DNA from: Polytrichum commune
Taxonomy: Eukaryota > Streptophyta > Polytrichopsida > Polytrichales > Polytrichaceae
Reading direction: 5' to 3'
DNA: 64,000 nt
NCBI GenBank assembly: GCA_950295325.1
Contig: OX485804.1
Span: 494,001-558,000 of the forward strand
Part shown: positions 3,952 to 56,600 of the stretch, in pieces
Layout of the letters: each line of letters starts with the position of its first letter
Numbering within the stretch: position 1 is the stretch's first letter
Made by a program: the position numbers and the translations under genes
The notes under the pieces: generated by a model
What the model was told of the DNA's origin: nothing
What the model saw: only the letters and a program-made list of their open reading frames with translations
The model's database searches: none

Positions 3952-4094
3952 AGCCTCCGCCTGGACGCGACACAGTGCCGACGCGGGCCGGACGACTTCC
4001 TACACTCCCTTCAGAACATGATTTTGATGCAATGGCTTCTTGCTTGCGGTGGTAGCGTCATCCTCTCACTGTTTTCTCTCTTGCTGCCACTTAG

Positions 4095-4780: not shown

Positions 4781-5059
4781 GTTGTGACCCCACTTGTTAC
4801 GGATTCTTGTAGGGAATAGTGAGCAGGTAGAAAGGGACGAGCACGCGTATCGCGAAAATTAGACGCTTGCCGGATGGAAAGGCAACCCAAGGAATCGGCG
4901 GGCAGAGAGGGAAGGGGTGCCCTTTGGAGCGCTTCTCTTGTCGACAAGATATCTTCAAAATTGCGGTGTTTATGGAATAGTGGAACTGAAGGCTGGAGTT
5001 TCATCGCTGTCATTGCCTCTACTTTTTATTCAACGAGCAGGTCTCCATTGGGCCCAAAA

Positions 5060-6697
5060 ATGTCAACCTGGGTGAGGTGGTTGTTTCATGCCATTGGACT
5101 TTGTTCCAGTTCTTCTCTTGAACCAGATTACTTGAAACTCTCTGTTGACTGTGTGCAAGATATCAAGAATGTCTTACGTGCTGGTCATGAATTGCAATTA
5201 AACGGGAGGCAGTGTCAGGATCTTGCTTCGAAGCTTGAAGTTTTCGTGGAGAAGATGCAAAACCTAGTCTTAAATGTTGAAGCATCAGGTTTGAGATCCT
5301 TTTATCCAGCTTTGAGGAACATGTACAGAGTCTCGGAGAAAGCGAAGTTGCTTGTCAATGACTGCTCCAAAGAAGATTGGTGTAGAGAATCCATGTTTCA
5401 GATCCATAATGAAGAAGCATTTGGAGAGATTTTGCGGGAGATAGGGTTATGCGACGAGCAAGCTAAAGCTATAATAATGCTTGGCCAATTGAAAGAGCAT
5501 AATCGAGTCAAAGATCTCTGTCCGTCTTCAACAATTTCACCCGCATCGGAGACAAATGACCTGGTTCTAGAAGATCGACATACATTGAAGGAGAGACTTC
5601 AAGACATGGCCAAAAGCAGTACCTCATCAGATAAGCATACAGAGTACCTTGTGAGATTCATGTTCAGAAAAATTGAAGTTTGGTCTGCAGAGCAAAGGAT
5701 TGAGAATTTGGACCCATATGATCCAATAAGTTTGGGTACCATTTCAGAAGTGCAAGATACAGAGGACAATGCATTGTCGGGCGAACAGGAACTGGCGTCT
5801 AAAGTGCAAAGAATTGAGAATGTGGGCATGTCTGATGCAATAGATTTGGGTTCAGATTCAGAATTGCAACATGGATGGAAGAATGCCAATTTAAAAATCA
5901 TTGGAAGCGGAGCACATGGAGCTGTTTTGTCCACCAAATGGCATGGCATCCCCTGCGCCAAGAAGGTATTTGATGTGAAGACCAGTCACATTTATCAAAG
6001 GGAAGCAGCTGTGCTTAGATGCCTCAACCACCCAAACATTGCCAAGTTCTTCTTTTGTGGCACTGAAAACCAGCAATGTTTCATTGCGATGGAGCTAATG
6101 CATATGAGTCTGCATGAATTGATCAAGGAACGTAAAGGAAGGCCATTTTCGACTGATGTAGCAATAAACATCATTTTGCAAATCGCGAATGCAATGTACT
6201 ATCTACATAAACAGGGGATTGCACATCGTGACCTCAAATCACTTAACGTGGTGATCAACAAAGTGTCAACCACTCCACACCCTGGTGACAAATTTCAGGT
6301 GAAGTTGGTTGATTTTGGGTTGTCAAAGACAAAGGTGGAAGCTTCCAAGGCCAACCCAGTGTCTATAAGAAATTGTGGCACCACAACATATAGAGCACCA
6401 GAGGTGTTTCCCAAGGGAGATGATCCTGAAATGGTGGTTTGGTTCAAGGCGGATGTATATAGTTTTGCTTTGATCTGCTCAGCAATTTTGTCCTTGAAGG
6501 AGCCCTTTGAAGGTGTATACGCCAAGACCTTGATCTGCCAGCTGCGCAACGGTGTGAGGCCACGTCTCCCACAAGATTGCCCCAAAGAGTTGGCTGCACT
6601 CGTGGAAGAATGTTGGAATGCAGAACCTAAGTCACGACCTACTTTTCTAGCCATTCGCACAAGGTTGGAGAAACTTGTTTTCTCAAGTGAGAATTGA
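5060..6697 (+). CDS. Helical-domain TKL-type protein kinase, unit 1
   Basis: Predicted active Ser/Thr kinase of 545 residues, single exon. Residues about 22-145 form a helical region with the N-G-R-Q-C-x-x-L pattern seen in MLKL/HeLo-like four-helix N-terminal domains of plant kinases (a family-level inference). The kinase domain is about 277-540: glycine loop GSGAHG (282-287), beta-3 Lys301, alpha-C Glu315, HRDLKSLN (389-396), DFG (418-420), APE (446-448), Asp465 and Arg526 are all present. The linker contains an imperfect 38-residue direct repeat (QRIEN at 212 and 250). I chose the ATG at 5060 because it is the first in-frame ATG in the other two copies. Here a one-base deletion near 4962 also opens the frame back to an ATG at 4874 (62 extra residues, probably untranslated). 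Probable role: signalling or cell-death/defence; not demonstrable from sequence. Confidence 0.9.
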   Translation: MSTWVRWLFHAIGLCSSSSLEPDYLKLSVDCVQDIKNVLRAGHELQLNGRQCQDLASKLEVFVEKMQNLVLNVEASGLRSFYPALRNMYRVSEKAKLLVNDCSKEDWCRESMFQIHNEEAFGEILREIGLCDEQAKAIIMLGQLKEHNRVKDLCPSSTISPASETNDLVLEDRHTLKERLQDMAKSSTSSDKHTEYLVRFMFRKIEVWSAEQRIENLDPYDPISLGTISEVQDTEDNALSGEQELASKVQRIENVGMSDAIDLGSDSELQHGWKNANLKIIGSGAHGAVLSTKWHGIPCAKKVFDVKTSHIYQREAAVLRCLNHPNIAKFFFCGTENQQCFIAMELMHMSLHELIKERKGRPFSTDVAINIILQIANAMYYLHKQGIAHRDLKSLNVVINKVSTTPHPGDKFQVKLVDFGLSKTKVEASKANPVSIRNCGTTTYRAPEVFPKGDDPEMVVWFKADVYSFALICSAILSLKEPFEGVYAKTLICQLRNGVRPRLPQDCPKELAALVEECWNAEPKSRPTFLAIRTRLEKLVFSSEN

Positions 6698-8702
6698 TCC
6701 TATGTGCAACCAGACTAATTACTCCTAACTGCAAATGCTCCAGAGAAGATAACAGTAGTCGAGGTAACCATCATTGATTAATTTCCTTATTATGATTGTT
6801 TTCCCACTAGGTCAATTCCATGTAAAATTGGTTGGATTGGTTCAAAGTTAGATATTTATTATCAGTGATACGTTGTGGTCTGCCAAAACTTCTGCTGGTT
6901 ATTGTTAACTCAGTGATTGCTACCTTAATGTTTGTTGATTAATACAATATTTACATTTCACAATCGTCCAATGTAATGAGATTAAATCATACCTTGATTA
7001 TTTACACCTAGTACTTAGGGCCACTTTACACTATGGCCAAGTGTCATGACCATGAAATTGTGAGGGACCAGGGTCCATGAAACTCATTTGAAGGCCGTAC
7101 CATGGAAACTAAAACTGGATTTGGTGTGGTCACGGGCCTTCGAGTGTAATGTAAAGACATAGTATGCGACCGGGCTCTCCACCGAACGTCATTCCATTAC
7201 CATCTTTTTCATGTAGGCCCTTCTACACAATGAGGTTTAATAGATCAAGAGTTGCAAGATCTTGAATAGTCATGGTCTTCCGGTTCTGTGGTTTGAGGTA
7301 GGCTTCACACAAAAGTCGATAGATCATGTAAAATTATCCCGTTAATGTCATGTAGGCTTCCAATGTAGGTTCAATCATTCAAACTCCCTTGGCCCCTTAG
7401 GCCCTCGAGCTCTAGTAGTAATGTGCGCAGGCTCATACTAACAGTAAAGAACTACAGAAAATAATCTAGACTTGGATATGAGTGGGCGGCCTTCCTAAAT
7501 ATAAATTGCTCATACAAGGAGATGTTCACCTCTACTTGTTTGGCTCATACTTTCCCCACTATTTGTTTTAGCTTACAAAGCTTATGAGGGATATGGAGGA
7601 GATGTTTCGATGGAATTAGAATTTGGATCAAATTCTCCACTTGTAATTATGGTCTGAAGAATTTATACTGAAACAAAACCTCCAGCCCTTGAGACAAGAA
7701 AACTTTATGAAGACTTCTCACCTGCACATTCAAAAAACATAGATGTATTAGGCCCGGCAGGTTTTTCACAATTCCGCATGTGCAACAATTTCCGAGCATC
7801 AAGGCAATCTACTGTGGAACGGTTCCCAAAGATTATCCCACAATCAGTTCAACCTGCGTTGGTGATATATCCTTGATGATATATTCTTGCAAACCAATTG
7901 AGCACCTTGCAGTCTTACCTGCTTATTTGTAAGAAGCTTGAAAAGAATGCAAGTTTGCCCAAAGTATGGCAAACTAAGCTCTAGAGAACATGAAATTGCT
8001 TATATGTGGAAGGGTTGTGATACACATCTTGCAAGTTTGATGGCCCAAGGTAAATGAATTTGGACCCTTACATGCGTATAAAATGGTGGAGCACAGGTTC
8101 CTCCTTTTTTGGAGTGATTTGAGACCATTAAACATGAAAACTCTACAAGTTCAAATTGTAGTAGCATGTATACTTTGGTTTTATGATTGCAAGATGTCAA
8201 TGTTGCAAGGTAGTATGGGATGTGTAGATGGTAAGGTGCGAGTAAAGGTAAAGCGAGTTGTGTATCCTTATGTTGGTCTTTTGTATGGTGAAGTTTCTAA
8301 GATTACATTCGATAGAAAATATTTTGTTTCTAGAAAAACAGTTGCATAGACGTATGGACTCTGCAACACTGGTCTTCACAACACCCAAAAGGCTATTCAT
8401 AGAGGTCTTCATTGCACCAAAAAAGAGGTCACAACTTTGTTTGGCCCTCTTATAAACAAACATGGCTATAGGTATACTCACTCAAAGGACGAGGAGCTCA
8501 TTGCTAGAGTGGAAAGAAATAAATGATTACACACCAAAAGTCAGGTGGAAAAGGCTGGGATGGCACAACCCCATACTACTTGCCATACATGTGATGGCCA
8601 AGCATTTTGCCTAGGTCAATGTTTTGTGACATGGCATGCAAAATAGGTATAAGATATATATACATGTTTACTAACTCGAAAGGGGGGGGGTTAAGGTGGG
8701 AA
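6698..8702. other. Intergenic 3' region of single kinase, unit 1
   Basis: Non-coding DNA conserved in all three units, with no RNA gene or protein family recognised. At about 8155 this copy lacks about 0.9 kb that units 2 (about 32465-33362) and 3 (about 58043-58930) retain. The join falls between gttcaaa and ttgtagtagcatg. Small frames around 8083-8481 span this deletion and are not considered genes. Confidence 0.6.
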
Positions 8703-12447: not shown

Positions 12448-14845
12448 GGTGGCTTAGGACGACCAGTGGACACTTTCTTTTGGGATCTCACAATTTCGTG
12501 GTCACGGCTCTTGGCTCGTGTGAGGTGGCCCTAACAACAGAGGCTGCCCCAAAGGATCCCCAAAGGAGGAGAGTATCGTGGGAGACATCCATCAATGCTC
12601 CTGCGTTGTTTGTCTATCTCATCAGATTCCAACTTCTCAAAGAACGCCACCACTCGAGGATCCATTAAGTACTTACTGTCATCTGCAGCACGAAATCATT
12701 TTCATTCCATGCATCCCGTGGCCGGCCAGCCAGCCAGCCAGCCAGGGATCCTAGCAGCAACCGCAGCTTTCAGCGGGTGCCACGCTTCTTCATACAAGTT
12801 GTTTGTTCCTCCGTCCTTTGTGAATCCGGGTGAGTTCCTCCTTATGAGTTAACTCTATAAGCACTATTGAGGCAGACTCCCTCATGCGGAGGACACACAC
12901 GTTTGGAAACACAACACTGGTTTTGAAAAGGAGTACATTAAGCCAAGGCAAGGTAAGAGAATTTCGGTCTTGACATGGGCCTAACTTCGAGGAGCTTGGT
13001 TCCCAGGTTGGTCAGTACAAACGTCCGTTTTCAGCTCTGATACTCTAATTCAAGACGGTGATTTTGCAAGGCTGGATACCCAATCGGAGTTGGAAAAGGA
13101 TGGTTTTGACCAAAAAGAAAGTGCCTAAATTCTTTTACCTTGGCCTCCCAAAGCCGGTTCCCAAACCGGCGTTTTCGAACGCGTGTGTCATACTCTTGAC
13201 CATTAGCCCCACGCCCTGCAATGTTTTGAAGTTTTTTTTGTTGTAAACAGCACAGCCAGTGTTTGGGGACACAAGTATGTGAGCGTTTCATGCGTAAAGC
13301 CACGGTTGTGCGTGCCCCTTGGCCCGCCCTGCATCAGATTAGTTGACGGCACCCAAGGGGGCTTCAGATGCAGAAGCTACTTGAATCCACCCATCAGCAG
13401 TGCACGATCCGGTGTCTCCCTCACCGCTCATTAGTATGAGGTGACGATCGTTTCATATTGTGGAGATGTTATTGATGCATAGATTCATTCGATAGACCTG
13501 CTTGCGGCGGTAGTGTCATCCTCTCAATGTTTTCTCTCTTGCTGCCACTAGGTGAAACGTCGCGGGCAAAGTTGATGACGTATTCGATACAGGTTGCAAC
13601 TCGCAAGGGTTTGGAATTCTAGTCAGCTTCGCTCTATGGCCTCCTGGACAGGGCCAGATATGTACTCTTATTTCTGCACAATAGTTGCGATCTATTTGAG
13701 TTCCGACGAGAAAGTCATAGCAGATTATTAGTTTGATGAGGATACTTTATTGATATGGTGCTCCAGATGTTTCTAGAAGGTGGTCCCATAGGATTTAAGA
13801 AGAAAGAGGCGGAACTAATCATATGCACTTTAAACTCCTTATGGTGGTCATGGTGTCACTGGATTCAATATCAAAATTTTGACAATGTATAAGTGGACCA
13901 TCTAAAGAATCCTCACTATGTTCAACCGGTAAACATGGCGCTGCTGCCTAATCAGTTTAGAACAGGTGCGACCGACTTTGAGGGAAGGCAGTGACTCCTA
14001 TCGATTCCAAGACGAACTTACCCTCCCAGATACAGCTTATAGCCATAGCCACATTTTGCTTCCTGTAAAGCTCGCAGCTTGATGTTACATGAGGCTCATT
14101 GGTGAGCCTTCTGATATTTTGTCTAGATTCTGAGAATTTCATGGTGATTGTGGTTATTTGGATGCCAGAGGTGTCGGATGGGGTTGTTGAAAAGGCCTTG
14201 GAAGGATAATCTGGACGTGCAAAAGGAATCAATTGTCTGGCTACTAGCATTCTAATTATATGTGGAAGACTGTGTGGTTGCCGAGCTGATGCTGTGAGCT
14301 ATGACCCGACTAGCAAATTCGAAAGGTATGCGCCTTAACTGTCATAGGTGTCAAAATCTCTAGCTACGAACAGAAACTTCAGATATATGAAGCTGGTTGT
14401 GCTGCTTTAACCATCCAACGGAGGCATGGCCTATCAGTGATCCTCTCATCGTCCCAGCCTTTCGTAGTAACTTCAAATTCATCTCTTCCAAGTTCAAGAA
14501 AGTTTCAAACGCAGTAGTGATTCTACATTACCTAATTTTGTCATGACTGACTCCTTTGTCGATGCTGTTCTGTGCAGACAAGGGATCACTCCAAGAAATG
14601 ATTTCCACTTTCAATGTGTGACATGCTTCTTCACGATGTTATTACGTCCATGTGAATCCTGGTGAGTTCCTTCTGTAATTATAGTGCTGCAACAAATTGC
14701 CCGACACTCTTGAGAATTGACCCATACTCTGCAAGGTTTTGAAGGTTTGCTAGTGTAAATAACAAGCTTGACTTGGTGGTTATGTGGTGAAGATAGAAAC
14801 AGGTATGCGGGAGATTGTGCATCTCCAAGGTTGTGTTGAAGGGGC
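12448..14845 (+). promoter_or_regulatory. 5' flanking region of double kinase, unit 1
   Basis: Conserved with 38724-41148 in unit 2. It contains a CAGC microsatellite (12727-12748) and a stretch at about 13490-13900 homologous to the 5' region of the single kinase (about 4020-4430). Two donor-like sequences of the form gaatcc(tg)|gtgagttcc lie near 12829 and 14662. Several untranslated exons are plausible, but no exon chain can be fixed without transcripts. No clear TATA box was found next to the ATG. Confidence 0.45.
13552..13657 (+). promoter_or_regulatory. Putative non-coding 5' exon of double kinase, unit 1 (donor lost)
   Basis: Preceded by a pyrimidine-rich run ending cactag (AG at 13550-13551). 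The 106-nt block aligns with the 5' exon candidates of the single kinase genes. In unit 2 it ends in ccag|gtatgt, a textbook donor; here it reads ccag|atatgt, so the donor GT has become AT. Inferred, without transcript evidence. Confidence 0.42.
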
Positions 14846-17800
14846 ATGGCCATGGCTAGCGCCGTATTTGCGACAAGTGGTGTTGGTGAAACTTCCTCGC
14901 CCACAGGAACAGATTACTTCACAACCTCGATCCAGTCATGTGTGCAAGGTATCGAAGCCCAACTTGTAGGTCATAAATCCCTGCTAAACGGGAGGCGATG
15001 TCTGGATCTCTGTACAAAACTTGTCAAGACCGTCGAGAATGTTCAGAAACTAGTTTCACATTCTCAGGTAGCATCTGGAAGAAATGAAACCTTGCGACCA
15101 GCCTTGGAGAACTTGCATAGAATCTTGGAGAAGGCGAGGTTTCTTATCAAGGGGTGCTCTGAAGCAGATTGTAAAGCGTTGATATTTCAGATGCAGAATG
15201 AAGAGGCCTTTCGAGAGATTTTGTATGAGGTAGGTTTGTGTTACAATGCCATCTACGAGCAAGCCAAACATATGGTACAATCGGAAGGGAGGATTCTTGG
15301 AGTAGAAGATCTCCGTGAGTCGAGTTCTACATTTGTGCCGGCACTGGAAAGAGAGGTTCTCGAAGATCAACACACACTGCAGACAATACTTGAGAATCTT
15401 GTCAGGAGTCCATCAAATGACACAAAGATTCAATGCCTTGCAAAGTACTTGTTGGACAATCTGAAATTCATATGCGAATATAGCGGGGGGAACAGAGTGG
15501 CCCGCTCGATGATGTCTAATGCGGTGATGTGGGTGACCGAAACAGAAACGCAAGGTACTTGGAATATCAAAGGCTTCGTTGGAAATGGAGCAGGGGCTAA
15601 AGGTGTTTTGCACACTGAATGGCTTGGAATCCCCTGTGCCAAGAAGATTTTCAAAGCTCACAACTCAGAGTATGCCGATTTCCAAGGGACTCTTGGCTAT
15701 TTGGTAACCGCATATATCCCAAATTTGTTTGGCATCCAATCTATAAAGAAGGAGCTTCACAACCAATTGGAGGATTTCACTTTTCGGAAGGAAGTGGCAC
15801 TCCTGGCACGCCTCAATCATCCGAATGTTGTCAAGTTCTTCTGTTGTGGTAGTGATTCAGAAGATGAATGTTTCATTGGGATGGAGCTTATGGAGATGGA
15901 CCTGGCTTACTTGATTAGAAGGCGTGAAGGAAAGCTGTTTGCGATTGAAGTGGCACTGGACATCATTTTGCAAATTGCGCGTGGGATGCTCTATCTTCAT
16001 GACCGAGGGATTGCACATCGAGACCTTAAACCTTTGAACGTGGTAATCAGCAAAGTTCCTAACTCTCCACATCTTGTTGAAAATTTCTGTGTGAAGTTAA
16101 TTGACTTTGGTTTGTCAAAGGCTAAGGTACAAGCCTCCATGTCCAGTACAGTATCAATCCCGAACTGTGGCACCGTAACATATAGAGCTCCAGAGGTGTT
16201 TTCCAAGGCACATGAGCACGTTCCGCGTGGAGGTGAACAGAAGGTGAATTGGTTCAAGGCGGATGTATACAGTTTTGCTTTGACATGCTCAGTGATTCTG
16301 TCCTTGAAGAAACCCTTTGAAGGGCGGTACCTTGAAGACGGGGAGGAGGATGGGCGGTACCTGGAGTTAATAAATGGTACTCGGCCAGAGATTCCCTCAA
16401 GCTGCCCTAAAGAGTTGGATGCACTTTTGAAAGAATGTTGGGAGACAAATCCTGAAAGAAGACCCCATTTCTCAACCATTTGCACGAGGCTTGAGAAGTA
16501 CAAGCATGGTCTTTTAAGAAGCCTATCTACTTCTATGGATGAAGGTTTGGAGGAGGTGAATTATGATGCAACAAGTGAGTACAACGCATGCATTGAGAGG
16601 ATCCTTGAAGAGTGTTCTCGGCATCGGAGTTCTATTAAGGATCTTGCCACAAATTCATCTGCTGTCAAAGCTGAGGTATTCATAAAGGCAATCATGATGA
16701 TACCCTACTATGTGGGTCGTGGAATCCTGTTGAATGGATGGCAATTGTCCTCAAACCTGCCAAGCTGGTTTAGACGGTGGTACAAATCTGTTGGAGCTGC
16801 TGCTCATCTTTCTTCTCTTGAAGCAGAGTACTCAAGTCTTAAACTTGATTACTTGTTACTCTCCGTGCAATGTGTGGAAGATATTGCACAGGTTCAACGT
16901 GTTGGGCACGAAACTCTGCTAAACGGAAAGCAATGTCAGCATTTATCTTCGGTGTTTGTTAAATGCGTTGAGAACATTCAGAAACTAGTGTCAGATTTTG
17001 GAGCATCAAGAGCAAAATCCTTTCGACCAGGATTGTGGAACTTCTACATAATCTCGGAGAAGTTGAGAAGGCTCGTGAATCAGTGCTGTGAAGCAGATTG
17101 GTGTAGAGCAGCCGTTTTCCAGATTCGCAATGAAGTGGCCTTTCGAGAGATCTTGGTGGACATAGAATTCGGTTACAATGCGATTTTCGACGAAGCCAAG
17201 AGTATGAGTGATCAGGAAGGGAAGACTTCTGAAGTAGAAGTGCTTCGCCGGTCTTCAACATTTTCCCTCGTATCGGAGGGTGAGATTTTTGAAGATCGTT
17301 GTAGCGTGAAGAAGAGACTCGAGAACATGGTGGAAAGTGCCGGCTCTTCAGATGAGCATAAGCAATGCCTTGCAAGATACTTGTTGGGGAGATTGGGATT
17401 CATATATGAAGAGCATCATTTAGAAATATTTGCATCTATAAAGGAACTTGAGGACTTGGTTAATAGTACCGCGTCATCAAAAAACCTGGACCAGTTGGAT
17501 CTTTGTGTATCTGCATTGCCTTATTTAGAACATGGGTCAAAACTGTGGAATAAAATCTACGATTTGTCCAAAGGCATCGGCTATTTAGAAGTGGGAAAAC
17601 CACACTTTGCAAGTTCCTTGTTGCAGGGATTACAAGAAGAGCTTGTCACGCATCTGAGTGAAGCAACATTTTGGGTGACTAAGAAGGAACCGCCAGGGAC
17701 GTGGACACACGAAGGTAGAATTATTTCACAATCTTCTGCTGGAATTGTAATGTCTACCAAATGGCTTGGAATCCCCTGTGCCAAGAAATTTGTGTCTTCG

Positions 17801-18523
17801 GAGAATGCACATTATTTTTTTTGGAAACCTGCAAAAGTACTGGCACGTCTGCACCATCCCAATATTATTAGAGTCTTCTGTTGTGGCAAAGACGAACGAG
17901 AAGGGCATTATTTCATTGGGATGGAACTTATGGAGACGGACTTGTCTGATTGTATCAGAAGTCGCGAATGGAGGCCATTTCCAATCGTTGTAGCACTTGA
18001 CATTATTGTGCAAATAGCGTGTGGGATGCGCTATCTGCATAGTCAGGGCATTGCACATCGGGATCTCAGGCCAGTAAATGTGCTCATCAGCAGAGCACTT
18101 AACACCACAGAGCATGGCGACATTTTCTGTGTGAAGCTCACTAATTTTCTGCTTTGCAAGGCAAACATGGAAGCCTATAGGGCCGAACGACCAACAGCCG
18201 TGATTGGCTACTCCGGTTATCTGGCTCCAGAGGTCTACGATAGAAGAAACTTACCATTGCAACCGTTCAAGGCAGACATTTTCAGCTTCGCGATGACTTC
18301 CTCAGATATATTATCCTTCAAACGACCCCCTGCTTTGGTGTCCGGGAAACTCTTCAGAGAGTATGTAGGAGCGATAGATGCGGGTGTGAGGCCCGAGATC
18401 GCATCAAGGTGCCCCAAAGAGTTGGTTGCTCTTCTGAAAGAGTGTTGGGATGCAAACCCCGAGTTACGCCCCGACTTTGATGCCGTTTGTACAAGGTTGC
18501 AGAAGATTGTTCTGTGTCACTGA
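14846..18523 (+). CDS. Double protein: helical-kinase-helical-pseudokinase, unit 1
   Basis: 1225 residues, single exon; an in-frame TGA lies just upstream, so ATG 14846 is the start (a second ATG is two codons on). Order: helical domain 1 (about 22-145, N-G-R-R-C pattern), kinase 1 (about 240-555), hydrophobic stretch about 611-629, helical domain 2 (about 660-790, N-G-K-Q-C), pseudokinase 2 (about 950-1222). Kinase 1 keeps Lys266, Glu316, HRDLKPLN (391-398), DFG (420-422), APE (448-450), Asp473 and Arg539, with an insert of about 35 residues between beta-3 and alpha-C. Domain 2 keeps Lys980 and HRD (1071-1073), but the glycine loop reads SQSSAG, the alpha-C Glu is Pro995, the HRDLK Lys is Arg1075, and DFG is NFL (1100-1102). 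It resembles plant tandem kinase-pseudokinase immune proteins in layout. Residues 638-680 match the N-terminus of the single kinase, so it probably arose by fusion of neighbouring copies. Confidence 0.92.
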   Translation: MAMASAVFATSGVGETSSPTGTDYFTTSIQSCVQGIEAQLVGHKSLLNGRRCLDLCTKLVKTVENVQKLVSHSQVASGRNETLRPALENLHRILEKARFLIKGCSEADCKALIFQMQNEEAFREILYEVGLCYNAIYEQAKHMVQSEGRILGVEDLRESSSTFVPALEREVLEDQHTLQTILENLVRSPSNDTKIQCLAKYLLDNLKFICEYSGGNRVARSMMSNAVMWVTETETQGTWNIKGFVGNGAGAKGVLHTEWLGIPCAKKIFKAHNSEYADFQGTLGYLVTAYIPNLFGIQSIKKELHNQLEDFTFRKEVALLARLNHPNVVKFFCCGSDSEDECFIGMELMEMDLAYLIRRREGKLFAIEVALDIILQIARGMLYLHDRGIAHRDLKPLNVVISKVPNSPHLVENFCVKLIDFGLSKAKVQASMSSTVSIPNCGTVTYRAPEVFSKAHEHVPRGGEQKVNWFKADVYSFALTCSVILSLKKPFEGRYLEDGEEDGRYLELINGTRPEIPSSCPKELDALLKECWETNPERRPHFSTICTRLEKYKHGLLRSLSTSMDEGLEEVNYDATSEYNACIERILEECSRHRSSIKDLATNSSAVKAEVFIKAIMMIPYYVGRGILLNGWQLSSNLPSWFRRWYKSVGAAAHLSSLEAEYSSLKLDYLLLSVQCVEDIAQVQRVGHETLLNGKQCQHLSSVFVKCVENIQKLVSDFGASRAKSFRPGLWNFYIISEKLRRLVNQCCEADWCRAAVFQIRNEVAFREILVDIEFGYNAIFDEAKSMSDQEGKTSEVEVLRRSSTFSLVSEGEIFEDRCSVKKRLENMVESAGSSDEHKQCLARYLLGRLGFIYEEHHLEIFASIKELEDLVNSTASSKNLDQLDLCVSALPYLEHGSKLWNKIYDLSKGIGYLEVGKPHFASSLLQGLQEELVTHLSEATFWVTKKEPPGTWTHEGRIISQSSAGIVMSTKWLGIPCAKKFVSSENAHYFFWKPAKVLARLHHPNIIRVFCCGKDEREGHYFIGMELMETDLSDCIRSREWRPFPIVVALDIIVQIACGMRYLHSQGIAHRDLRPVNVLISRALNTTEHGDIFCVKLTNFLLCKANMEAYRAERPTAVIGYSGYLAPEVYDRRNLPLQPFKADIFSFAMTSSDILSFKRPPALVSGKLFREYVGAIDAGVRPEIASRCPKELVALLKECWDANPELRPDFDAVCTRLQKIVLCH

Positions 18524-28233: not shown

Positions 28234-28376
28234 AGCCTCCGCCTGGACGCGACATAGTGCCGACGCCTGCCGGACGACTTCCGACACTCCCTTCAGAACA
28301 TGATTTTGATGCAATGGCTTCTTGCTCGCGGTGGTAGCGTCATCCTCTCACTGTTTTCTCTCTTGCTGCCACTTAG

Positions 28377-28478
28377 GTGCAACGTCGGCAAAGTGACCAC
28401 GTAATGGATGCAGTTTGCAACTCACAAGGGTTTGGAATTATAGTCAGCTTCGCTCTACGGCCTCCTCGGAAGCACCGG
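28377..28478 (+). promoter_or_regulatory. Putative non-coding 5' exon of single kinase, unit 2
   Basis: Pyrimidine-rich tract then cacttag (AG at 28375-28376), 102 conserved nucleotides, then gg|gtatgt (donor GT at 28479-28480). Splice signals at both ends are canonical, unlike unit 1. Confidence 0.45.
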
Positions 28479-29067
28479 GTATGTACTCTTCCTTCTGCAC
28501 AATAGTTCCGATTTAATTTAAGTTGCCCATCAGAGCGTCATAGCAGATTATTGGTTTGATGAGGTTACGTTATTGATATGGTGCTCCAGTTGTTTCTGGA
28601 AGGTGGTCCCATAGGATTTAAGAAGACAAGAGGTGGACCCAATCAATATGCACATTCAACTCCTTATGGTGGTTATGGTATAACTGGATTCGATATCAAA
28701 ATTTGACAATGTGTAAGTGGACCATGTAAAGAATCCTCACTATGTTCAAATTGTAGACATGGTTACAGCTTATAGCCACAGTTTTCTTCTTGCAAAGATT
28801 GCAGTTTGGTGTTGAATGACGCTCATAGGTGAAGTGAGCTGTAGCCCCAAGTTGAAGTGCATACAAGTCTACATTCTGAGAGTTTCAACGTGATTGTGTT
28901 GTAGAGTGCTGTAGAGGGGACCCCATCTCTCTTTCCCTCCCCCTAAGTTTTCTGGAAAAATAGGTTGTTTGTGAACCACTATGCAAAACCCTACGGATCG
29001 GAGCAAGAAGTGTTTGCCGAGGTTGAATGTCCGTGCAGGCCGACTTATTTTAAGGTTTTTGTGGGGA

Positions 29068-29073: not shown

Positions 29074-29352
29074 GTTGTGACCCCAGTTGTTACGGATTCT
29101 TGTAGGGAATAGTGAGCAGGTAGAAGGGGACGAGCACGCGTATCGCGAAATTAGACGCTTGCCGGATGGAAAGGCAACCCAAGGAATCGGCGGGCAGAGA
29201 GGGAAGGGGTGCCCTGTGGAGAGCTTCTCTTGTCGACATGATATCTTCAAAATTCGCGGTGTTTATGGAATAGTGGAACTGAAGGCTGGGGTTTCATCGC
29301 TGTTATAGCCTCTACTTTTTATTCAACAAGCAGGTCTCCATTGGGCCCAAAA

Positions 29353-30990
29353 ATGTCAACCTTGGTGAGGTGGTTGTTTCATGCCATTGGATTTTGTTCC
29401 AATTCTTCTCTTGAACCAGATTACTTGAAACTCTCTGTTGACTGTGTGCAAGATATCAAGAATGTGTTATGTGCTGGTCATGAATTGCAATTAAACGGGA
29501 GGCAGTGTCAGGATCTTGCTTCGAAGCTTGAAGTTTTCGTGGAGAAGATGCAAAACCTAGTCTTAAATGTTGAAGCATCAGGTTTGAGATCCTTTTATCC
29601 AGCTTTGAGGAACATGTACAGAGTCTCGGAGAAAGCGAAGTTGCTTGTCAATGACTGCTCCAAAGAAGATTGGTGTAGAGAATCCATGTTTCAGATCCAG
29701 AATGAAGAAGCATTTGGAGAGATTTTGCGGGAGATAGGGTTATGCGACGAGCAAGCTAAAGCTATAATAATGCTTGGCCAATTGAAAGAGCAGAATCGAG
29801 TCAAAGATCTCGGTCTGCCTTCAACAATTTCACCTGCATCGGAGACAAATGACCTGGTTCTAGAAGATCGACATACATTGAAGGAGAGACTTCAAGACAT
29901 GGCCAAAAGCAGTACCTCATCAGATAAGCATAAAGAGTACCTTGTGAGATTCATGTTGAGAAAACTAGAAGTTTGGTCTGGAGAGCAAAGGATTGAGAAT
30001 TTGGACCCATATGATCCAATAAGTTTGGGTACCATTTCAGAAGTGCAAGATACAGAGGACAATGCATTGTCGGGCGAACAGGAACTGGCGTCTAAAGTGC
30101 AAAGAATTGAGAATGTGGGCATGTCTGATGCAATAGATTTGGGTTCAGATTCAGAATTGCAACATGGATGGGAGAATGCCAATTTAGAAATCATTGGAAG
30201 CGGAGCACATGGAGCCGTTTTGTCCACCAAATGGCATGGCATCCCCTGCGCCAAGAAGGAATTTATTGTGCAGGCCAGTCACATTTTTCAGAGGGAAGCA
30301 GCTGTGCTGAGATGCCTCAACCACCCAAACATTGCCAAGTTCTTAGTTTGTGGCACTGAAAACCAGCAATGTTTCATTGCGATGGAGCTAATGCATATGA
30401 GCGTGCATGAATTGATCAAGGAACGTAAAGGAAGGCCATTTTCGACTGATGTAGCAATAAACATCATTTTGCAAATCGGGAATGCAATGTACTATCTACA
30501 TAAACAGGGGATTGCACATCGTGACCTCAAATCACTTAACGTGGTGATCAACAAAGTGTCAACCACTCCACACCCTGGTGACAAATTTCAGGTGAAGTTG
30601 GTTGATTTTGGGTTGTCAAAGACAAAGGTGGAAGCTTCCAAGGCCAAACCAGTGTCTATAAGAAATTGTGGCACCACAACATATAGAGCACCAGAGGTGT
30701 TTCCCAAGGGAGATGATCCTGAAAAGGTGGTTTGGTTCAAGGCGGATGTATATAGTTTTGCTTTGATCTGCTCAGCAATTTTGTCCTTGAAGGAGCCCTT
30801 TGAAGGTGTATACGCCAAGACCTTGATCTGCCAGCTGCGCAACGGTGTGAGGCCACGTCTCCCACAAGATTGCCCCAAAGAGTTGGCTGCACTCGTGGAA
30901 GAATGTTGGAATGCAGAACCTAAGTCACGACCTACTTTTCTAGCCATTCGCACAAGGTTGGAGAAACTTGTTTTCTCAAGTGAGAATTGA
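29353..30990 (+). CDS. Helical-domain TKL-type protein kinase, unit 2
   Basis: 545 residues, no length difference from the other two copies. The first in-frame ATG is 29353; an in-frame TGA sits just upstream in this copy (within gacatgatatc), which fixes the start better than in units 1 and 3. Helical N-terminal region about 22-145, 38-residue linker repeat, then a kinase with GSGAHG loop, beta-3 Lys301, alpha-C Glu315, HRDLKSLN, DFG and APE intact. It is the most divergent copy in a short block around beta-3 and alpha-C: KEFIVQASHIF where the others read KVFDVKTSHI, KFLVCG where they read KFFFCG, and MSVHELIK where they read MSLHELIK. These changes cluster in the N-lobe and hinge region. 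Predicted catalytically active; substrates unknown. Confidence 0.9.
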   Translation: MSTLVRWLFHAIGFCSNSSLEPDYLKLSVDCVQDIKNVLCAGHELQLNGRQCQDLASKLEVFVEKMQNLVLNVEASGLRSFYPALRNMYRVSEKAKLLVNDCSKEDWCRESMFQIQNEEAFGEILREIGLCDEQAKAIIMLGQLKEQNRVKDLGLPSTISPASETNDLVLEDRHTLKERLQDMAKSSTSSDKHKEYLVRFMLRKLEVWSGEQRIENLDPYDPISLGTISEVQDTEDNALSGEQELASKVQRIENVGMSDAIDLGSDSELQHGWENANLEIIGSGAHGAVLSTKWHGIPCAKKEFIVQASHIFQREAAVLRCLNHPNIAKFLVCGTENQQCFIAMELMHMSVHELIKERKGRPFSTDVAINIILQIGNAMYYLHKQGIAHRDLKSLNVVINKVSTTPHPGDKFQVKLVDFGLSKTKVEASKAKPVSIRNCGTTTYRAPEVFPKGDDPEKVVWFKADVYSFALICSAILSLKEPFEGVYAKTLICQLRNGVRPRLPQDCPKELAALVEECWNAEPKSRPTFLAIRTRLEKLVFSSEN

Positions 30991-41148: not shown

Positions 41149-44100
41149 ATGGCCATGGCTAGCGCCGTATTTGCGACAAGTGGTGTTGGTGAAACTTCCT
41201 CGCCCACAGGAACAGATTACCTCACAACCTTGATCCAGTCATGTGTGCAAGGTATCGAAGCCCAACTTGTAGGTCATAAATCCCTGCTAAACGGGAGGCA
41301 ATGTCTGGATCTCTGTACAAAACTTGTCAAGACCGTCGAGAATGTTCAGAAACTAGTTTCACATTCTCAGGTAGCATCTGGAAGAAATGAAACCTTGCGA
41401 CCAGCCTTGGAGAACTTGCATAGAATCTTGGAGAAGGCGAGGTTTCTTATCAAGGGGTGCTCTGAAGCAGATTGTAAAGCGTTGATATTTCAGATGCAGA
41501 ATGAAGAGGCCTTTCGAGAGATTTTGTATGAGGTAGGTTTGTGTTACAATGCCATCTACGAGCAAGCCAAACATATGGTACAATCGGAAGGGAGGATTCT
41601 TGGAGTAGAAGATCTCCGTGAGTCGAGTTCTACATTTGTGCCGGCACTGGAAAGAGAGGTTCTCGAAGATCAACACACACTGCAGACAATACTTGAGAAT
41701 CTTGTCAGGAGTCCATCAAATGACACAAAGATTCAATGCCTTGCAAAGTACTTGTTGGACAATCTGAAATTCATATGCGAATATAGCGGGGGGAACAGAG
41801 TGGCCCGCTCGATGATGTCTAATGCGGTGATGTGGGTGACCGAAACAGAAACGCAAGGTACTTGGAATACCAGAGGCTTCGTTGGAAATGGAGCAGGGGC
41901 TAAAGGTGTTTTGGACACTGAATGGCTTGGAATCCCCTGTGCCAAGAAGATTTTCAAAGCTCACAACTCAGAGTATGCCGATTTTTTGGCACTCCAACGG
42001 ACTCTTGGCTATTTGGCAAATATCCCAAATTTGTTTGGCATCCAATCTATAAAGAAGGAGCTTCACAACCAATTGGAGGATTTTACTTTTCGGAAGGAAG
42101 TGGCACTCCTGGCACGCCTCAATCATCCGAATGTTGTCAAGTTCTTCTGTTGTGGTAGTGATTCAAAAGATGAATGTTTCATTGGGATGGAGCTTATGGA
42201 GATGGACCTGTCTTCCTTGATTAGAAGGCGTGAAGGAAAGCTGTTTGCGATTGAAGTGGCACTGGACATCATTTTGCAAATTGCGCGTGGGATGCTCTAT
42301 CTTCATGATCGAGGGATTGCACATCGAGACCTTAAACCTTTGAACGTGGTAATCAGCAAAGTTCCTAACTCTCCACATGTTCAAAATTTCTATGTGAAGT
42401 TAACTGACTTTGGTTTGTCAAAGGCTAAGGTACAAGCCTCCATGTCCAGTACAGTATCAATCCCGAACTGTGGCACCTTAACATATAGAGCTCCAGAGGT
42501 GTTTTCCAAGGCACATGAGCACGTTCCGCGTGGAGGTGAACAGAAGGTGAATTGGTTCAAGGCGGATGTATACAGTTTTGCTTTGACATGCTCAGTGATT
42601 CTGTCCTTGAAGAAACCCTTTGAAGGGCGGTACCTTGAAGACGGGGAGGAGGATGGGCGGTACCTGGAGTTAATAAATGGTACTCGGCCAGAGATTCCCT
42701 CAAGCTGCCCTAAAGAGTTGGATGCACTTTTGAAAGAATGTTGGGAGACAAATCCTGAAAGAAGACCCCATTTCTCAACCATTTGCACGAGGCTTGAGAA
42801 GTACAAGCATGGTCTTTTAAGAAGCCTATCTACTTCTATGGATGAAGGTTTGGAGGAGGTGAAATATGATGCAAGAAGTGATTGCACCGCATGCATTGAG
42901 AGGATCCTTGAGGAGCGTTCTCGACATCGGAGTTCTATTAAGGATCTTGCCACAAATTCATCTGCTGTCGAAGCTGAGGTAATCATAAAGGCAATCATGA
43001 TGATACCCTACTATGTGGGTCGTGGAATCCTGTTGAATGGATGGCAATTGTCCTCAAACCTGCCAAGCTGGTTTAGACGGTGGTACAAATCTGTTGGAGC
43101 TGCTGCTCATCTTTCTTCTCTTGAAGCAGAGTACTCAAGTCTTAAACTTGATTACTTGTTACTCTCCGTGCAATGTGTGGAAGATATTGCACAGGTTCAA
43201 CGTGTTGGGCACGAAACTCTGCTAAACGGAAAGCAATGTCAGCATTTATCTTCGGTGTTTGTTAAATGCGTTGAGAACATTCAGAAACTAGTGACAGATT
43301 TTGGAGCATCAAGAGCAGAATCCTTTCGACCAGGATTGTGGAACTTCTACATAATCTCGGAGAAGTTGAGAAGGCTCGTGAATCAGTGCTGTGAAGCAGA
43401 TTGGTGTAGAGCAGCCGTTTTCCAGATTTGGAATGAAGTGGCCTTGCGAGAGATTTTGGTGGACATAGAATTCGGTTACAATGCGATTTTCGACGAAGCC
43501 AAGAGTATGAGTGATCAGGAAGGGAAGACTTCTGAAGTAGAAGTGCTTCGCCGGTCTTCAACATTTTCCCTCGTATCGGAGGGTGAGATTTTTGAAGATC
43601 GTTGTAGCGTGAAGAAGAGACTCGAGATCATGGTGGAAAGTGCCGGCTCTTCAGATGAGCATAAGCAATGCCTTGCAAGATACTTGTTGGGGAGATTGGG
43701 ATTCATATATGAAGAGCATCATTTAGAAATATTTGCATCTATAAAGGAACTTGAGGACTTGGTTAATAGTACCGCGTCATCAAAAAACCTGGACCAGTTG
43801 GATCTTTGTGTATCTGCATTGCCTTATTTAGAACATGGGTCAAAACTGTGGAATAAAATCTACGATTTGTCCAAAGGCATCGGCTATTTAGAAGTGGGAA
43901 AACCACACTTTGCAAGTTCCTTGTTGCAGGGATTACAAGAAGAGCTTGTCACGCATCTGAGTGAAGCAACATTTTGGGTGACTAAGAAGGAACCGCCAGG
44001 GACGTGGACACACGAAGGTAGAATTATTTCACAATCTTCTGCTGGAATTGTAATGTCTACCAAATGGCTTGGAATCCCCTGTGCCAAGAAATTTGTGTCT

Positions 44101-44832
44101 TCGGAGAATGCACATTACCAGTTTTGGAAACCTGCAAAAGTAATGGCACGTCTGCACCATCCGAATATTATTAAAGTCTTCTGTTGTGGCAAAGACGAAC
44201 GAGAAGGGCATTATTTCATTGGGATGGAACTTATGGAGACGGATTTGTCTGATTGTATCAGAAGTCGCGAAGGGAGGCCATTTCCAATCGTTGTAGCACT
44301 TGACATTATTGTGCAAATAGCGTGTGGGATGCGCTATCTGCATAGTCAGGGCATTGCACATCGGGATCTCAAGCCAGGAAATGTGCTCATCAGCAGAGCA
44401 CTTAACACCACAGAGCTTGGCGACACTTTCTGTGTGAAGGTCTCTGGTTTTGTCATTTGCAAGGCAAACGTGGAAGCCTCTAGGGCCGAAGTACCAACAG
44501 GCAAGGGCGCTTATGGCACTAAGGCTTATATGGCTCCAGAGGTCTACGCTAGAAGAGCTTTACCATTGAAACCGTTCAAGGCGGACATTTTCAGCTTCGC
44601 GATGACTTCCTCAGATATATTATCCTTCAAACGACCCCCTGCTTTGGTGTCCGGGAAACTCCTCAGAGACTATGTAGGAGCGATAGATGCGGGTGTGAGG
44701 CCCGAGATCGCATCAAGGTGCCCCAAAGAGTTGGTTGCTCTTCTGAAAGAGTGTTGGGATGCAAACCCCGAGTTACGCCCCGACTTTGATGCCGTTTGTA
44801 CAAGGTTACAGAAGATTGTTCTGTGTCACTGA
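41149..44832 (+). CDS. Double protein: helical-kinase-helical-pseudokinase, unit 2
   Basis: 1227 residues, single exon, same domain order and start context as the unit 1 copy. Kinase 1 is intact (HRDLKPLN, DFG, APE) and carries the beta-3/alpha-C insert, with a rewritten segment (DFLALQRTLGYLANIPN here). The second kinase domain again has SQSSAG in place of the glycine loop and Pro in place of the alpha-C Glu, but HRDLKPGN is intact, and the DFG position reads GFV (about 1100-1102) where unit 1 has NFL. The following activation segment is also different and two residues longer. Over the rest of the protein the two copies are nearly identical. Domain 2 is therefore a predicted pseudokinase in both copies, by independent changes at DFG. 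Likely signalling or defence role by architecture; not shown. Confidence 0.92.
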   Translation: MAMASAVFATSGVGETSSPTGTDYLTTLIQSCVQGIEAQLVGHKSLLNGRQCLDLCTKLVKTVENVQKLVSHSQVASGRNETLRPALENLHRILEKARFLIKGCSEADCKALIFQMQNEEAFREILYEVGLCYNAIYEQAKHMVQSEGRILGVEDLRESSSTFVPALEREVLEDQHTLQTILENLVRSPSNDTKIQCLAKYLLDNLKFICEYSGGNRVARSMMSNAVMWVTETETQGTWNTRGFVGNGAGAKGVLDTEWLGIPCAKKIFKAHNSEYADFLALQRTLGYLANIPNLFGIQSIKKELHNQLEDFTFRKEVALLARLNHPNVVKFFCCGSDSKDECFIGMELMEMDLSSLIRRREGKLFAIEVALDIILQIARGMLYLHDRGIAHRDLKPLNVVISKVPNSPHVQNFYVKLTDFGLSKAKVQASMSSTVSIPNCGTLTYRAPEVFSKAHEHVPRGGEQKVNWFKADVYSFALTCSVILSLKKPFEGRYLEDGEEDGRYLELINGTRPEIPSSCPKELDALLKECWETNPERRPHFSTICTRLEKYKHGLLRSLSTSMDEGLEEVKYDARSDCTACIERILEERSRHRSSIKDLATNSSAVEAEVIIKAIMMIPYYVGRGILLNGWQLSSNLPSWFRRWYKSVGAAAHLSSLEAEYSSLKLDYLLLSVQCVEDIAQVQRVGHETLLNGKQCQHLSSVFVKCVENIQKLVTDFGASRAESFRPGLWNFYIISEKLRRLVNQCCEADWCRAAVFQIWNEVALREILVDIEFGYNAIFDEAKSMSDQEGKTSEVEVLRRSSTFSLVSEGEIFEDRCSVKKRLEIMVESAGSSDEHKQCLARYLLGRLGFIYEEHHLEIFASIKELEDLVNSTASSKNLDQLDLCVSALPYLEHGSKLWNKIYDLSKGIGYLEVGKPHFASSLLQGLQEELVTHLSEATFWVTKKEPPGTWTHEGRIISQSSAGIVMSTKWLGIPCAKKFVSSENAHYQFWKPAKVMARLHHPNIIKVFCCGKDEREGHYFIGMELMETDLSDCIRSREGRPFPIVVALDIIVQIACGMRYLHSQGIAHRDLKPGNVLISRALNTTELGDTFCVKVSGFVICKANVEASRAEVPTGKGAYGTKAYMAPEVYARRALPLKPFKADIFSFAMTSSDILSFKRPPALVSGKLLRDYVGAIDAGVRPEIASRCPKELVALLKECWDANPELRPDFDAVCTRLQKIVLCH

Positions 44833-54683: not shown

Positions 54684-54962
54684 GTTGTGACCCCACTTGT
54701 TACGGATTCTTGTAGGGAATAGTGAACAGGTAGAAGGGGACGAGCACGCGTATCGCGAAATTAGACGCTTGCCGGATGGAAAGGCAATCCAAGGAATCGG
54801 CGGGCAGAGAGGGAAGGGGTGCCCTTTGGAGCGCTTCTCTTGTCGACAGGATATCTTCAAAATTCGCGGTGTTTATGGAATAGTGGAACTGAAGGCTGGA
54901 GTTTTATCGCTGTCATTGCCTCTACTTTTTATTCAACGAGCAGGTCTCCATTGGGCCCAAAA

Positions 54963-56600
54963 ATGTCAACCTGGGGGAGGTGGTTGTTTCATGCCATTGG
55001 ACTTTGTTCCAGTTCTTCTCTTGAACCAGATTACTTGAAACTCTCTGTTGACTGTGTGCAAGATATCAAGAATGTGTTATGTGCTGGTCATGAATTGCAA
55101 TTAAACGGGAGGCAATGTCAGGATCTTGCTTCGAAACTTGAAATTTTCGTGGAGAAGATGCAAAACCTAGTCTTAAATGTTGAAGCATCAGGTTTGAGAT
55201 CCTTCTATCCAGCTTTGAGGAACATGTACAGAGTCTCGGAGAAAGCGAAGTTGCTTGTCAATGACTGCTCCAAAGAAGATTGGTGTAGAGAATCCATGTT
55301 TCAGATCCAGAATGAAGAAGCATTTGGAGTGATTTTGCGGGAGATAGGGTTATGCGACGAGCAAGCTAAAGCCATAAGAATGCTTGGCCAATTGAAAGAG
55401 CATAATCGAGTCAAAGATCTCGGTCCGTCTTCAACAATTTCACCCGCATCGGAGACAAATGACCTGGTTCTAGAAGATCGACATACATTGAAGGAGAGAC
55501 TTCAAGACATGGCCAAAAGCAGTACCTCATCAGATAAGCATAAAGAGTACCTTGTGAGATTCATGTTGAGAAAACTAGAAGTTTGGTCTGGAGAGCAAAG
55601 TATTGAGAATTTGGACCCATCTGATCCAATAAGTTTGGGTACCATTTCAGAAGTGCAAGATACAGAGGACAATGCATTGTTGGGCAAACAGGAACTGGCG
55701 TCTAAAGTGCAAAGAATTGAGAATGTGGGCATGTCTGATGCAATAGATTTGGGTTCAGATTCAGAATTGCAACATGGATGGGAGAATGCCAATTTAAAAA
55801 TCATTGGAAGCGGAGCACATGGAGTTGTTTTGTCCACCAAATGGCATGGCATCCCCTGCGCCAAGAAGGTATTTGATGTGAAGACCAGTCACATTTTTCA
55901 GAGGGAAGCAGCTGTGCTAAGATGCCTGAACCACCCAAACATTGCCAAGTTCTTCTTTTGTGGCACTGAAAACCAGCAATGTTTCATTGCGATGGAGCTA
56001 ATGCATATGAGTCTGCATGAATTGATCAAGGAACATAAAGGAAGGCCATTTTCGACTAATGTAGCAATAAACATCATTTTGCAAATCGCGAATGCAATGT
56101 ACTATCTACATAAACAGGGGATTGCACATCGTGACCTCAAATCACTTAACGTGGTGATCAACAAAGTGTCAACCACTCCACACCCTGGTGACAAATTTCA
56201 GGTGAAGTTGGTTGATTTTGGGTTGTCAAAGACAAAGGTGGAAGCTTCCAGGTCCAACCCAGTGTCTATAAGAAATTGTGGCACCACAACATATAGAACA
56301 CCAGAGGTATTTTCCAAGGGAGATGATCCTGAAAAGGTGGTTTGGTTCAAGGCGGATGTATATAGTTTTTCTTTGATCTGCTCAGCAATTTTGTCCTTGA
56401 AGGAGCCCTTTGAAGGTGTATACGCCAAGACCTTGATCTGCCAGCTGCGCAATGGTGTGAGGCCACGTCTCCCACAAGATTGCCCCAAAGAGTTGGCTGC
56501 ACTCGTGGAAGAATGTTGGAATGAAGAACCTAAGTTACGACCCAATTTTCTAGCCATTCGCACAAGGCTAGAGAAACTTGTTTTCTCGAGTGAGAATTGA
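54963..56600 (+). CDS. Helical-domain TKL-type protein kinase, unit 3
   Basis: 545 residues, same architecture as the other single kinases. The frame is open upstream to 54819 but contains no ATG before 54963. Lys301, Glu315, HRDLKSLN and DFG are intact; the APE motif reads TPE because residue 446 is Thr (codon 56298-56300). The APE Ala is the least critical position, so activity is probably kept. The glycine loop is GSGAHG followed by VV instead of AV. Other private changes include EHKGRPFSTN (Arg to His, Asp to Asn) and a C-terminal EEPKLRPNF where the others read AEPKSRPTF. The protein mixes residues otherwise private to copy 1 (KVFDVKTSHI, KFFFCG) and to copy 2 (LRKLEVWSGEQ, VLCAGHEL). 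Confidence 0.9.
   Translation: MSTWGRWLFHAIGLCSSSSLEPDYLKLSVDCVQDIKNVLCAGHELQLNGRQCQDLASKLEIFVEKMQNLVLNVEASGLRSFYPALRNMYRVSEKAKLLVNDCSKEDWCRESMFQIQNEEAFGVILREIGLCDEQAKAIRMLGQLKEHNRVKDLGPSSTISPASETNDLVLEDRHTLKERLQDMAKSSTSSDKHKEYLVRFMLRKLEVWSGEQSIENLDPSDPISLGTISEVQDTEDNALLGKQELASKVQRIENVGMSDAIDLGSDSELQHGWENANLKIIGSGAHGVVLSTKWHGIPCAKKVFDVKTSHIFQREAAVLRCLNHPNIAKFFFCGTENQQCFIAMELMHMSLHELIKEHKGRPFSTNVAINIILQIANAMYYLHKQGIAHRDLKSLNVVINKVSTTPHPGDKFQVKLVDFGLSKTKVEASRSNPVSIRNCGTTTYRTPEVFSKGDDPEKVVWFKADVYSFSLICSAILSLKEPFEGVYAKTLICQLRNGVRPRLPQDCPKELAALVEECWNEEPKLRPNFLAIRTRLEKLVFSSEN

Follow-up and report, generated by a model that had tools for sequence, protein, structure and literature searches.

A moss double gene with two HeLo-like helical domains, a complete kinase and a predicted pseudokinase, related to plant MLKL

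A stretch of 64,000 nucleotides from the moss Polytrichum commune (contig OX485804.1, positions 494,001 to 558,000; C2:494001-558000 in the 408-Mb genome), referred to here as the window, carries five kinase open reading frames (ORFs) on the same strand: the double gene K2, which is the subject of this analysis, a second double gene, K4, and three single genes. K2 is a single intronless frame of 1225 codons that runs from the ATG at 14846 to a stop codon ending at 18523. A sequence-only reading of this DNA had described an unbroken frame with the order helical-kinase-helical-kinase-like, and this was borne out by the ORF, the Pfam scan and the motif table. In the Pfam scan no families but those of kinase type, PK_Tyr_Ser-Thr, Pkinase and the kinase-like Kdo, were found above their cut-offs, each in two stretches, and RPW8 and DUF7792 scored far under theirs. 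PsaB from the same assembly has its best matches in 8htu, 6l35 and 7ksq, which are structures of photosystem I from the moss Physcomitrium. The two halves of K2 are homologous, with an identity of 44% between the kinases and of 48% between the helical domains.

Kinase 1 carries every catalytic motif, as the same reading had it: the glycine loop GAGAKGV (residue 248), AKK with the catalytic Lys267, Glu316, HRD (391), DFG (420) and APE (448). In the alignment it contains an insert of about 40 residues between β-3 and α-C. Domain 2 shows SQSSAG (961) at the glycine loop, Pro995 at the position of the α-C Glu and NFL (1100) at the DFG position, and it retains the β-3 Lys981, HRD (1071) and APE (1127). 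Lys, Glu, HRD and DFG are all present in 28 of 28 tabulated modules outside the C2-type second halves. In the six second halves of C2 type the α-C Glu is absent throughout, the DFG Asp is absent in five and the β-3 Lys in one (L003), and HRD is kept in all. The DFG position reads NFL in K2, GFV in K4 and L002, GFG in L003 and L006, and DFR in L001; the losses claimed for domain 2 thus hold for K2, but that of the DFG Asp is not uniform among the copies. From these motif losses domain 2 is predicted to be a pseudokinase, and K2 has two kinase domains in one chain with at least one predicted to be inactive, which is how tandem kinases are defined. For wheat Lr9 a change of the α-C Glu was taken as a hint of a pseudokinase (PMC10260399; here and below, papers are cited for the part of their text that was available).

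The helical domains were examined on AlphaFold models of each half, built from an alignment of the seven modules in the window, and with sequence profiles. In these low-confidence models the helices of HeLo domain 1 span residues 21-40, 49-77, 84-104 and 109-146, and the helical region of half 2 contains at least four helices. In VIA the top row for both halves was 6lba (AtMLKL2), with Z 14.1 and 14.5 for these weak models. HeLo domain 2 with its brace superimposed on 6ka4 (AtMLKL3) with Z 13.1 and a root-mean-square deviation (rmsd) of 3.1 Å over 163 residues (model 67-233, corresponding to residues 667-833), a Z near 13 being reachable by helical bundles through common arrangement alone. The fit of half 1 to 6lba covers residues 21-554 at 14.6 Å across both domains and gives no clean figure for the HeLo domain by itself; whole-module fits to 6lba have an rmsd near 15 Å, and the placement of HeLo domain to kinase is not reproduced. 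In Foldseek the top 50 rows for these models list kinases, with TM-scores of about 0.2 of the query. The second look by VIA was confined to chains ranked by Foldseek, a set that favours kinases, and its MLKL match tells us something mainly in that the helical part was aligned too. Mouse or human MLKL chains are not among the best 50 rows listed, which is not evidence of absence.

A profile of 14 helical-domain members matched AtMLKL2 (6lba) with E 0.0019, and one of 17 members matched AtMLKL2 with E 3.3e-4, a designed helical protein with 0.014 and AtMLKL3 with 0.095. The motif LxNxxQC is common to the HeLo domains and the AtMLKL alignments, with R for Q in HeLo domain 1 of K2. Of the solved structures, AtMLKL2 (5.6e-39) and AtMLKL3 (8.4e-32) come nearest to the half-1 kinase. 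When the 17 members were compared with Pfam families, the best E was 1.8e-4 for MLKL_N, 7.1e-5 for RPW8 and 2.5e-3 for DUF1221, and matches at E up to 1 were obtained for 7, 5 and 3 of the 17 members, respectively. Among the rows with scores listed, the curated cut-offs of these three families were not reached: the first member scored 14.3 and 15.4 bits against cut-offs of 27 and 30.4, and for the protein P0001 RPW8 alone of the three was listed, with 12 bits against 30.4. These sub-threshold scores reflect a detection limit rather than a biological feature. The sequence-only reading had proposed two MLKL/HeLo-like helical domains, to be checked by structure prediction and by a Pfam hidden Markov model search. 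The structural part came out in its favour for the helices, the fit of HeLo domain 2 and the ranking of AtMLKL2, if from weak models, and the profiles agree; the Pfam search, with MLKL_N below its curated cut-off, did not. In sum, the models and profiles support both helical domains as MLKL/HeLo-like. Plant MLKL ends in a C-terminal pseudokinase; because half 2 ends in one and half 1 does not, K2 is classed as a HeLo-kinase relative of MLKL and not as MLKL in the strict sense.

The full-length doubles are K2 and four copies at 86-95% identity. At the 338 sites that vary among these five no stop codon is found, which has P of about 3e-6 under random change, a random single-base change of K2 giving a stop in 3.7% of cases, and all gap runs among them are multiples of 3. 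Because five full-length copies keep the frame, the fused frame is, as judged from the sequences, a kept one and not a chance ORF. Coding divergence among the four closest copies is 1.6-3.1% as compared with 1.2-3.0% in the 600 bp upstream, and in pairs with the distant copy L003 it is 6.2-6.8% as compared with 2.0-3.2%. The ratio of replacement to silent divergence (pN/pS) between double copies comes to 1.06 over the whole gene and to 1.01 in kinase 1, so that the frame is retained while residues change about as fast as silent sites. Over other comparisons it is 0.40 for kinase 1 against the kinase of a single gene, 0.69-1.00 for the pseudokinase against its C3 relative, 0.96-1.28 for the parts of the double genes on C1, 0.54-1.09 for the window singles, 0.56-0.83 for the C5-type singles and 0.35-0.72 for the modules of nucleotide-binding leucine-rich repeat receptor (NLR) type.

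Among the four closest copies the differences gather in the pseudokinase, in its activation segment. The 32 aligned codons that lead from the DFG position to APE contain 27 of 168 variable sites, 6.2-fold over expectation, with 16 replacement codons and no silent-only codon. Residues 1096-1146 hold 38 variable sites, with 22 replacement and 2 silent-only codons. The matching stretches of kinase 1 have 2 sites in 31 codons (DFG to APE) and 3 in the wider stretch, and the remaining pseudokinase is not enriched (0.80-fold). The densest 53-codon window, with 39 sites, starts at residue 1090; in 5000 random placements no window held more than 25. When L003 is included, the enrichment of the segment is still 3.3-fold. 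Over the five copies residues 1096-1150 have a pS of 0.085, a pN of 0.130 and a pN/pS of 1.53, as compared with 1.06 for the whole gene. In the DNA alignment of the hot spot, differences of several bases at a time stand in short clusters flanked by nearly identical sequence. A search for a donor of the divergent K2 segment gave six genome matches (K2, four array siblings at 83-84% and a C3 copy at 75%) and none besides. The clustering of changes suggests diversifying selection on the activation segment.

The window lies in an array on C2 (about 412-740 kb) of at least 16 loci in which singles and doubles nearly alternate: at least eight singles, at least five full-length doubles and at least three shortened doubles, these counts being lower bounds since the best 38 of 710 candidate matches were scored. 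One of the eight array singles has a short frame of 417 residues and one has a stop. The shortened copies, at L004 and L005, are two frames of about 875 residues (HeLo-kinase-HeLo) and a broken partial copy with a stop; beside this broken gene L005 contains an ORF on the minus strand (7142-7999), which resembles, as we take it, a transposase of the pogo/tigger DDE type. K2 residues 634-823 align with residues 59-240 of the single gene K1 (blastp, E 3e-39). Since the last part of the linker thereby matches the 5' leader of single genes, the end of the linker is likely a scar of fusion with a downstream single gene. A 440-bp module has 15 matches in the genome, all within C2:398-737 kb and, in 13 cases, directly ahead of a gene match. 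Its copies are 86-87% identical between singles and doubles, whose coding parts share about 37-43% of residues, and as the module is common to both it suggests that singles and doubles are under common regulation. For two copies, at C2:398407 and C2:622091, the roughly 2 kb that follow contain no gene match among those listed. A scan for bacterial-type promoters and terminators upstream of K2, a type of scan unsuited to a plant, gave no excess over chance. Coordinates are collected in Table 1. The window further contains two self-complementary stretches, at 803-1138 (95.8% over 336 columns) and at 37075-37523 (79% over 465, with internal tandem repeats), which are possibly hairpin transposable elements.

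Table 1. Features of the window and the evidence on which each was assigned (positions in the 64,000-nucleotide stretch; aa, amino acid residues; AF2, AlphaFold)
Feature	Position	Strand	Evidence
K2 double gene, HeLo1-brace-kinase1-linker-HeLo2-brace-pseudokinase, 1225 aa	14846..18523	+	open frame; kept in 5 full-length copies
HeLo-like four-helix domain 1, aa 21-146	14906..15283	+	AF2 helices (low confidence); AtMLKL2 profile match; 6lba top by VIA
Kinase 1, aa 226-552	15521..16501	+	Pfam kinase; motif table, all catalytic motifs
K2 linker, aa 553-660	16502..16825	+	blastp and alignment against single-gene 5' leader
HeLo-like helical domain 2, aa 668-789	16847..17212	+	6ka4 (AtMLKL3) superposition; helices in low-confidence model
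Predicted pseudokinase, aa 937-1220	17654..18505	+	motif table, without Gly loop, α-C Glu and DFG
Pseudokinase activation segment, DFG position to APE, aa 1100-1129	18143..18232	+	diversity hot spot, four closest copies
440-bp upstream module, K2 copy	13499..13938	+	genome matches
440-bp upstream module, other window copies	4041-4481, 28323-28763, 39802-40243, 53933-54373		
K4 double gene, 1227 aa, 95% identical to K2, GFV at domain 2 DFG position	41149..44832	+	ORF, alignment, motif table
K1 single HeLo-kinase gene, complete kinase motifs, start uncertain	4874..6697	+	ORF, Pfam, motif table
K3 single HeLo-kinase gene, listed start TTG, true start uncertain	29341..30990	+	ORF, Pfam, motif table
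K5 single HeLo-kinase gene, listed start GTG, true start uncertain	54819..56600	+	ORF, Pfam, motif table

The HeLo-kinase module is also found elsewhere in the genome, at the head of NLR genes. L018 and L019 encode HeLo-kinase-NB-ARC-LRR (LRR: leucine-rich repeat) in one open frame with a long LRR array; six further loci (L015-L017 and L020-L022) have a HeLo-kinase ORF with an NB-ARC ORF behind it, and in lists compared by eye NB-ARC is matched directly downstream of at least 11 HeLo-kinase loci, on the same strand. At L016 the junction, read by eye, is AAG|GTATT...TTTTCAG|CTT in phase 0. In the window itself no NB-ARC or LRR was found with four queries (best tblastn E 0.087), which match NLR loci at 1e-38 or better as a control. 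Since the module heads NLR loci and the window lacks NB-ARC and LRR, the window genes appear as a branch, lacking the NLR part, of a module that also stands at the front of immune receptors. The kinase-NLR genes L015-L022, which lie on C6, C5 and C4, carry a HeLo/MLKL-like helical domain before the kinase. In L018 (1832-9499) and L019 (363-6620) the LRR part consists of dozens of near-identical repeats of the type LTSLxxLDLSGCEGLKEIPEALGN, which suggests that their repeat number turns over rapidly.

A tree of 34 modules groups apart the C2 first halves, the C2 second halves, the window singles, the C1 doubles, the C5-type singles and the NLR types. Both halves of the C1 doubles group together (support 98/95), and the C2 second halves appear with weak support (78/65) as sisters of single genes. 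A single fusion for C1 and C2 doubles was assessed by the approximately unbiased (AU) test, with p 0.08 for first and 0.029 for second halves, this being a test set up after the tree and subject to a long-branch warning. Two separate fusions are favoured by these data, and the word ancient, which the sequence-only reading had entertained, is doubtful for the fusion itself as the C1 family looks independently made. The C1 doubles L007 (3049-6549) and L008 (2829-6239) have two complete kinases and a hydrophobic C-terminal segment.

We give about an even chance to the view that K2 is an MLKL-like intracellular immune kinase with its fused pseudokinase serving as sensor or decoy and as latch, where immunity, bait, cell death and gating are what we infer. 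Half 1, with HeLo domain 1 and the complete kinase 1, would be the signalling or executing part, and half 2 would be regulatory, its pseudokinase being no longer dependent on catalysis. The activation segment of the pseudokinase would act as bait or sensor and half 2 as a latch on half 1, as proposed for wheat tandem kinases. On activation kinase 1 would act, and the HeLo bundle would be released and perturb membranes, as expected of MLKL-type proteins. Tandem arrays are common for immune genes, and in some angiosperm immune kinases pathogen effectors modify the activation segment. The earlier proposal of an immune module that joins the ideas of tandem kinases and of MLKL has gained ground in that the kinase-pseudokinase tandem stands in a kept frame and in that an immune role is made likelier by the NB-ARC-LRR receptors of this genome headed by the same module. 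The tandem array, the kinship with NLRs and the precedent of Pm13, a resistance gene of Aegilops, support immunity, and by these analogies K2 is probably an immune protein; the variability of the activation segment supports the bait role. A more specific version is rather doubtful: a self-contained protein in which an active MLKL-like HeLo-kinase carries a HeLo-pseudokinase, with an activation segment under diversifying selection as exchangeable bait for pathogen effectors. Neighbouring HeLo-kinase genes would then have fused at least twice in this moss, and one executor module would be coupled to an NLR in some genes and to a pseudokinase sensor in others.

Several observations weigh against the reading of K2 as an immune kinase with a sensor pseudokinase. 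The AlphaFold models of the two halves have predicted local distance difference test (pLDDT) values of 44 and 51, i.e., low confidence, likely caused by the shallow alignment. At this depth there is no sign of purifying selection on residues, kinase 1 included (pN/pS about 1), and three shortened relatives do without the pseudokinase. The variable segment was picked after inspection, for which reason all 53-codon windows were compared, and with L003 the densest of them, holding 48 of 343 sites, shifts to the N-lobe of the pseudokinase (residue 947). The contrast of replacement and silent changes between residues 1096-1146 and the rest is not significant (p 0.11). As silent differences are also raised around the hot spot, gene conversion could contribute to it, or relaxed constraint.

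An unlikely alternative, built by analogy to the animal necrosome, is that kinase 1 would switch the half-2 pseudokinase, by phosphorylation or otherwise, and so free HeLo domain 2 as the executioner within one chain. In animals RIPK3 switches MLKL, the two being separate proteins. The catalytically complete half 1, a half 2 that is a HeLo-pseudokinase like Arabidopsis MLKL, the retention of both HeLo domains and the GFG that L003 and L006 share at the DFG position with 6lba and 6ka4 are all in line with such an internal relay. It would be odd, however, if a fixed kinase in the same chain were aimed at an activation segment that varies. In addition, the C1 doubles carry two complete kinases, and the shortened copies retain HeLo domain 2 without a pseudokinase. 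We regard it as just as improbable that half 2 is a by-product of duplication, a pseudokinase decaying under relaxed constraint, and that the protein works via half 1 as an ordinary HeLo-kinase. This would fit the pN/pS of about 1, the loss of even the β-3 Lys in L003 and the three copies shortened by the pseudokinase, but five full-length copies show no stop or frameshift, the absence of stops at the 130 variable sites of domain 2 (five copies) being expected with P of about 0.007, and the changes among the four closest copies cluster in one segment with the rest at 0.80-fold. That two genes or transcripts share an open frame by chance is very improbable: the linker does hold a remnant of a single gene's 5' leader, but its frame is open in all eight copies spanning it (five full-length, two of about 875 residues, one partial; two of the eight lie in L005), and the 440-bp module precedes half 1, half 2 being preceded by none of the 15 matches.

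If the reading of K2 as an MLKL-like immune kinase is correct, a moss has a HeLo-kinase module with a complete kinase, perhaps near the parent form of plant MLKL, and has wired it in three ways within one genome: alone, doubled with a pseudokinase and heading NLR receptors. The kinase end of moss kinase-NLRs would then act as an executor of MLKL type and include a HeLo domain, which is not mentioned in the available parts of their descriptions. The question would arise whether, outside the grasses, tandem kinase-pseudokinase immune proteins of plants come about several times in the same way. With its 30 to 50 residues, the variable activation segment is a concrete target for work on binding and on swaps. 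New here are the HeLo-kinase module at the head of kinase-NLR receptors, the motif losses of the second halves and the hot spot in the pseudokinase. In the open-access literature searched, no mention of a doubled MLKL was found in the titles and abstract openings that were listed, and no moss tandem kinase with a pseudokinase was found.

The closest kin found for K2 are plant MLKL and the moss PK-NBS-LRR proteins (PNL, Pkn-NLR). Plant MLKL (AtMLKL1-3; 6lba, 6ka4; DUF1221-kinase) has the HeLo four-helix domain, brace and kinase-like domain as in K2, gives its best sequence and structure matches and has the LxNxxQC motif in common with it. The AtMLKLs consist of a single module with a pseudokinase (the two that were aligned read HGD or HGE, and GFG), whereas K2 has two modules in one chain, has a complete first kinase and comes from a moss. 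The MLKL family was described as conserved across seed plants (PMC9950082), and an annotation survey lists MLKL among the NLR-associated proteins across the tested species, bryophytes included (PMC11218826). The moss PNLs share the same HeLo-kinase module, as seen in the NLR loci of this genome, and the phase-0 kinase/NBS junction of L016 matches that described for them (PMC3352924). In contrast to PNLs, the window genes lack NB-ARC and LRR. In the text available PNLs are characterised by their kinase and not by a HeLo domain (PMC3352924). A kinase N-terminus from Physcomitrium gave a modest and variable response in N. benthamiana (PMC11218826). In the animal RIPK3-MLKL necrosome a kinase and a HeLo-pseudokinase likewise work as a pair, a likeness by description.

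Pm13 of Aegilops, which encodes MLKL_NTD and a complete kinase, is a validated resistance gene (PMC10951266). It resembles half 1 in its HeLo/MLKL_NTD domain, brace and kinase with all key residues, and differs from K2 in being a single module with an RLK/Pelle DLSV kinase and an MLKL_NTD rather than the DUF1221 cluster (PMC10951266). The Triticeae tandem kinases and kinase fusions (Yr15/WTK1, Sr62, Lr9/WTK6-vWA) combine a kinase and a pseudokinase in one chain like K2, and a model in which the pseudokinase acts as decoy was put forward for tandem kinases (PMC8956640; PMC10260399). Unlike K2 they have no HeLo domains in the available parts of their descriptions. The Sr62 kinases are said to belong to Pelle/DLSV (PMC8956640). 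The wheat tandem kinases may be regarded as a parallel to K2, likened by architecture rather than by kinase lineage.

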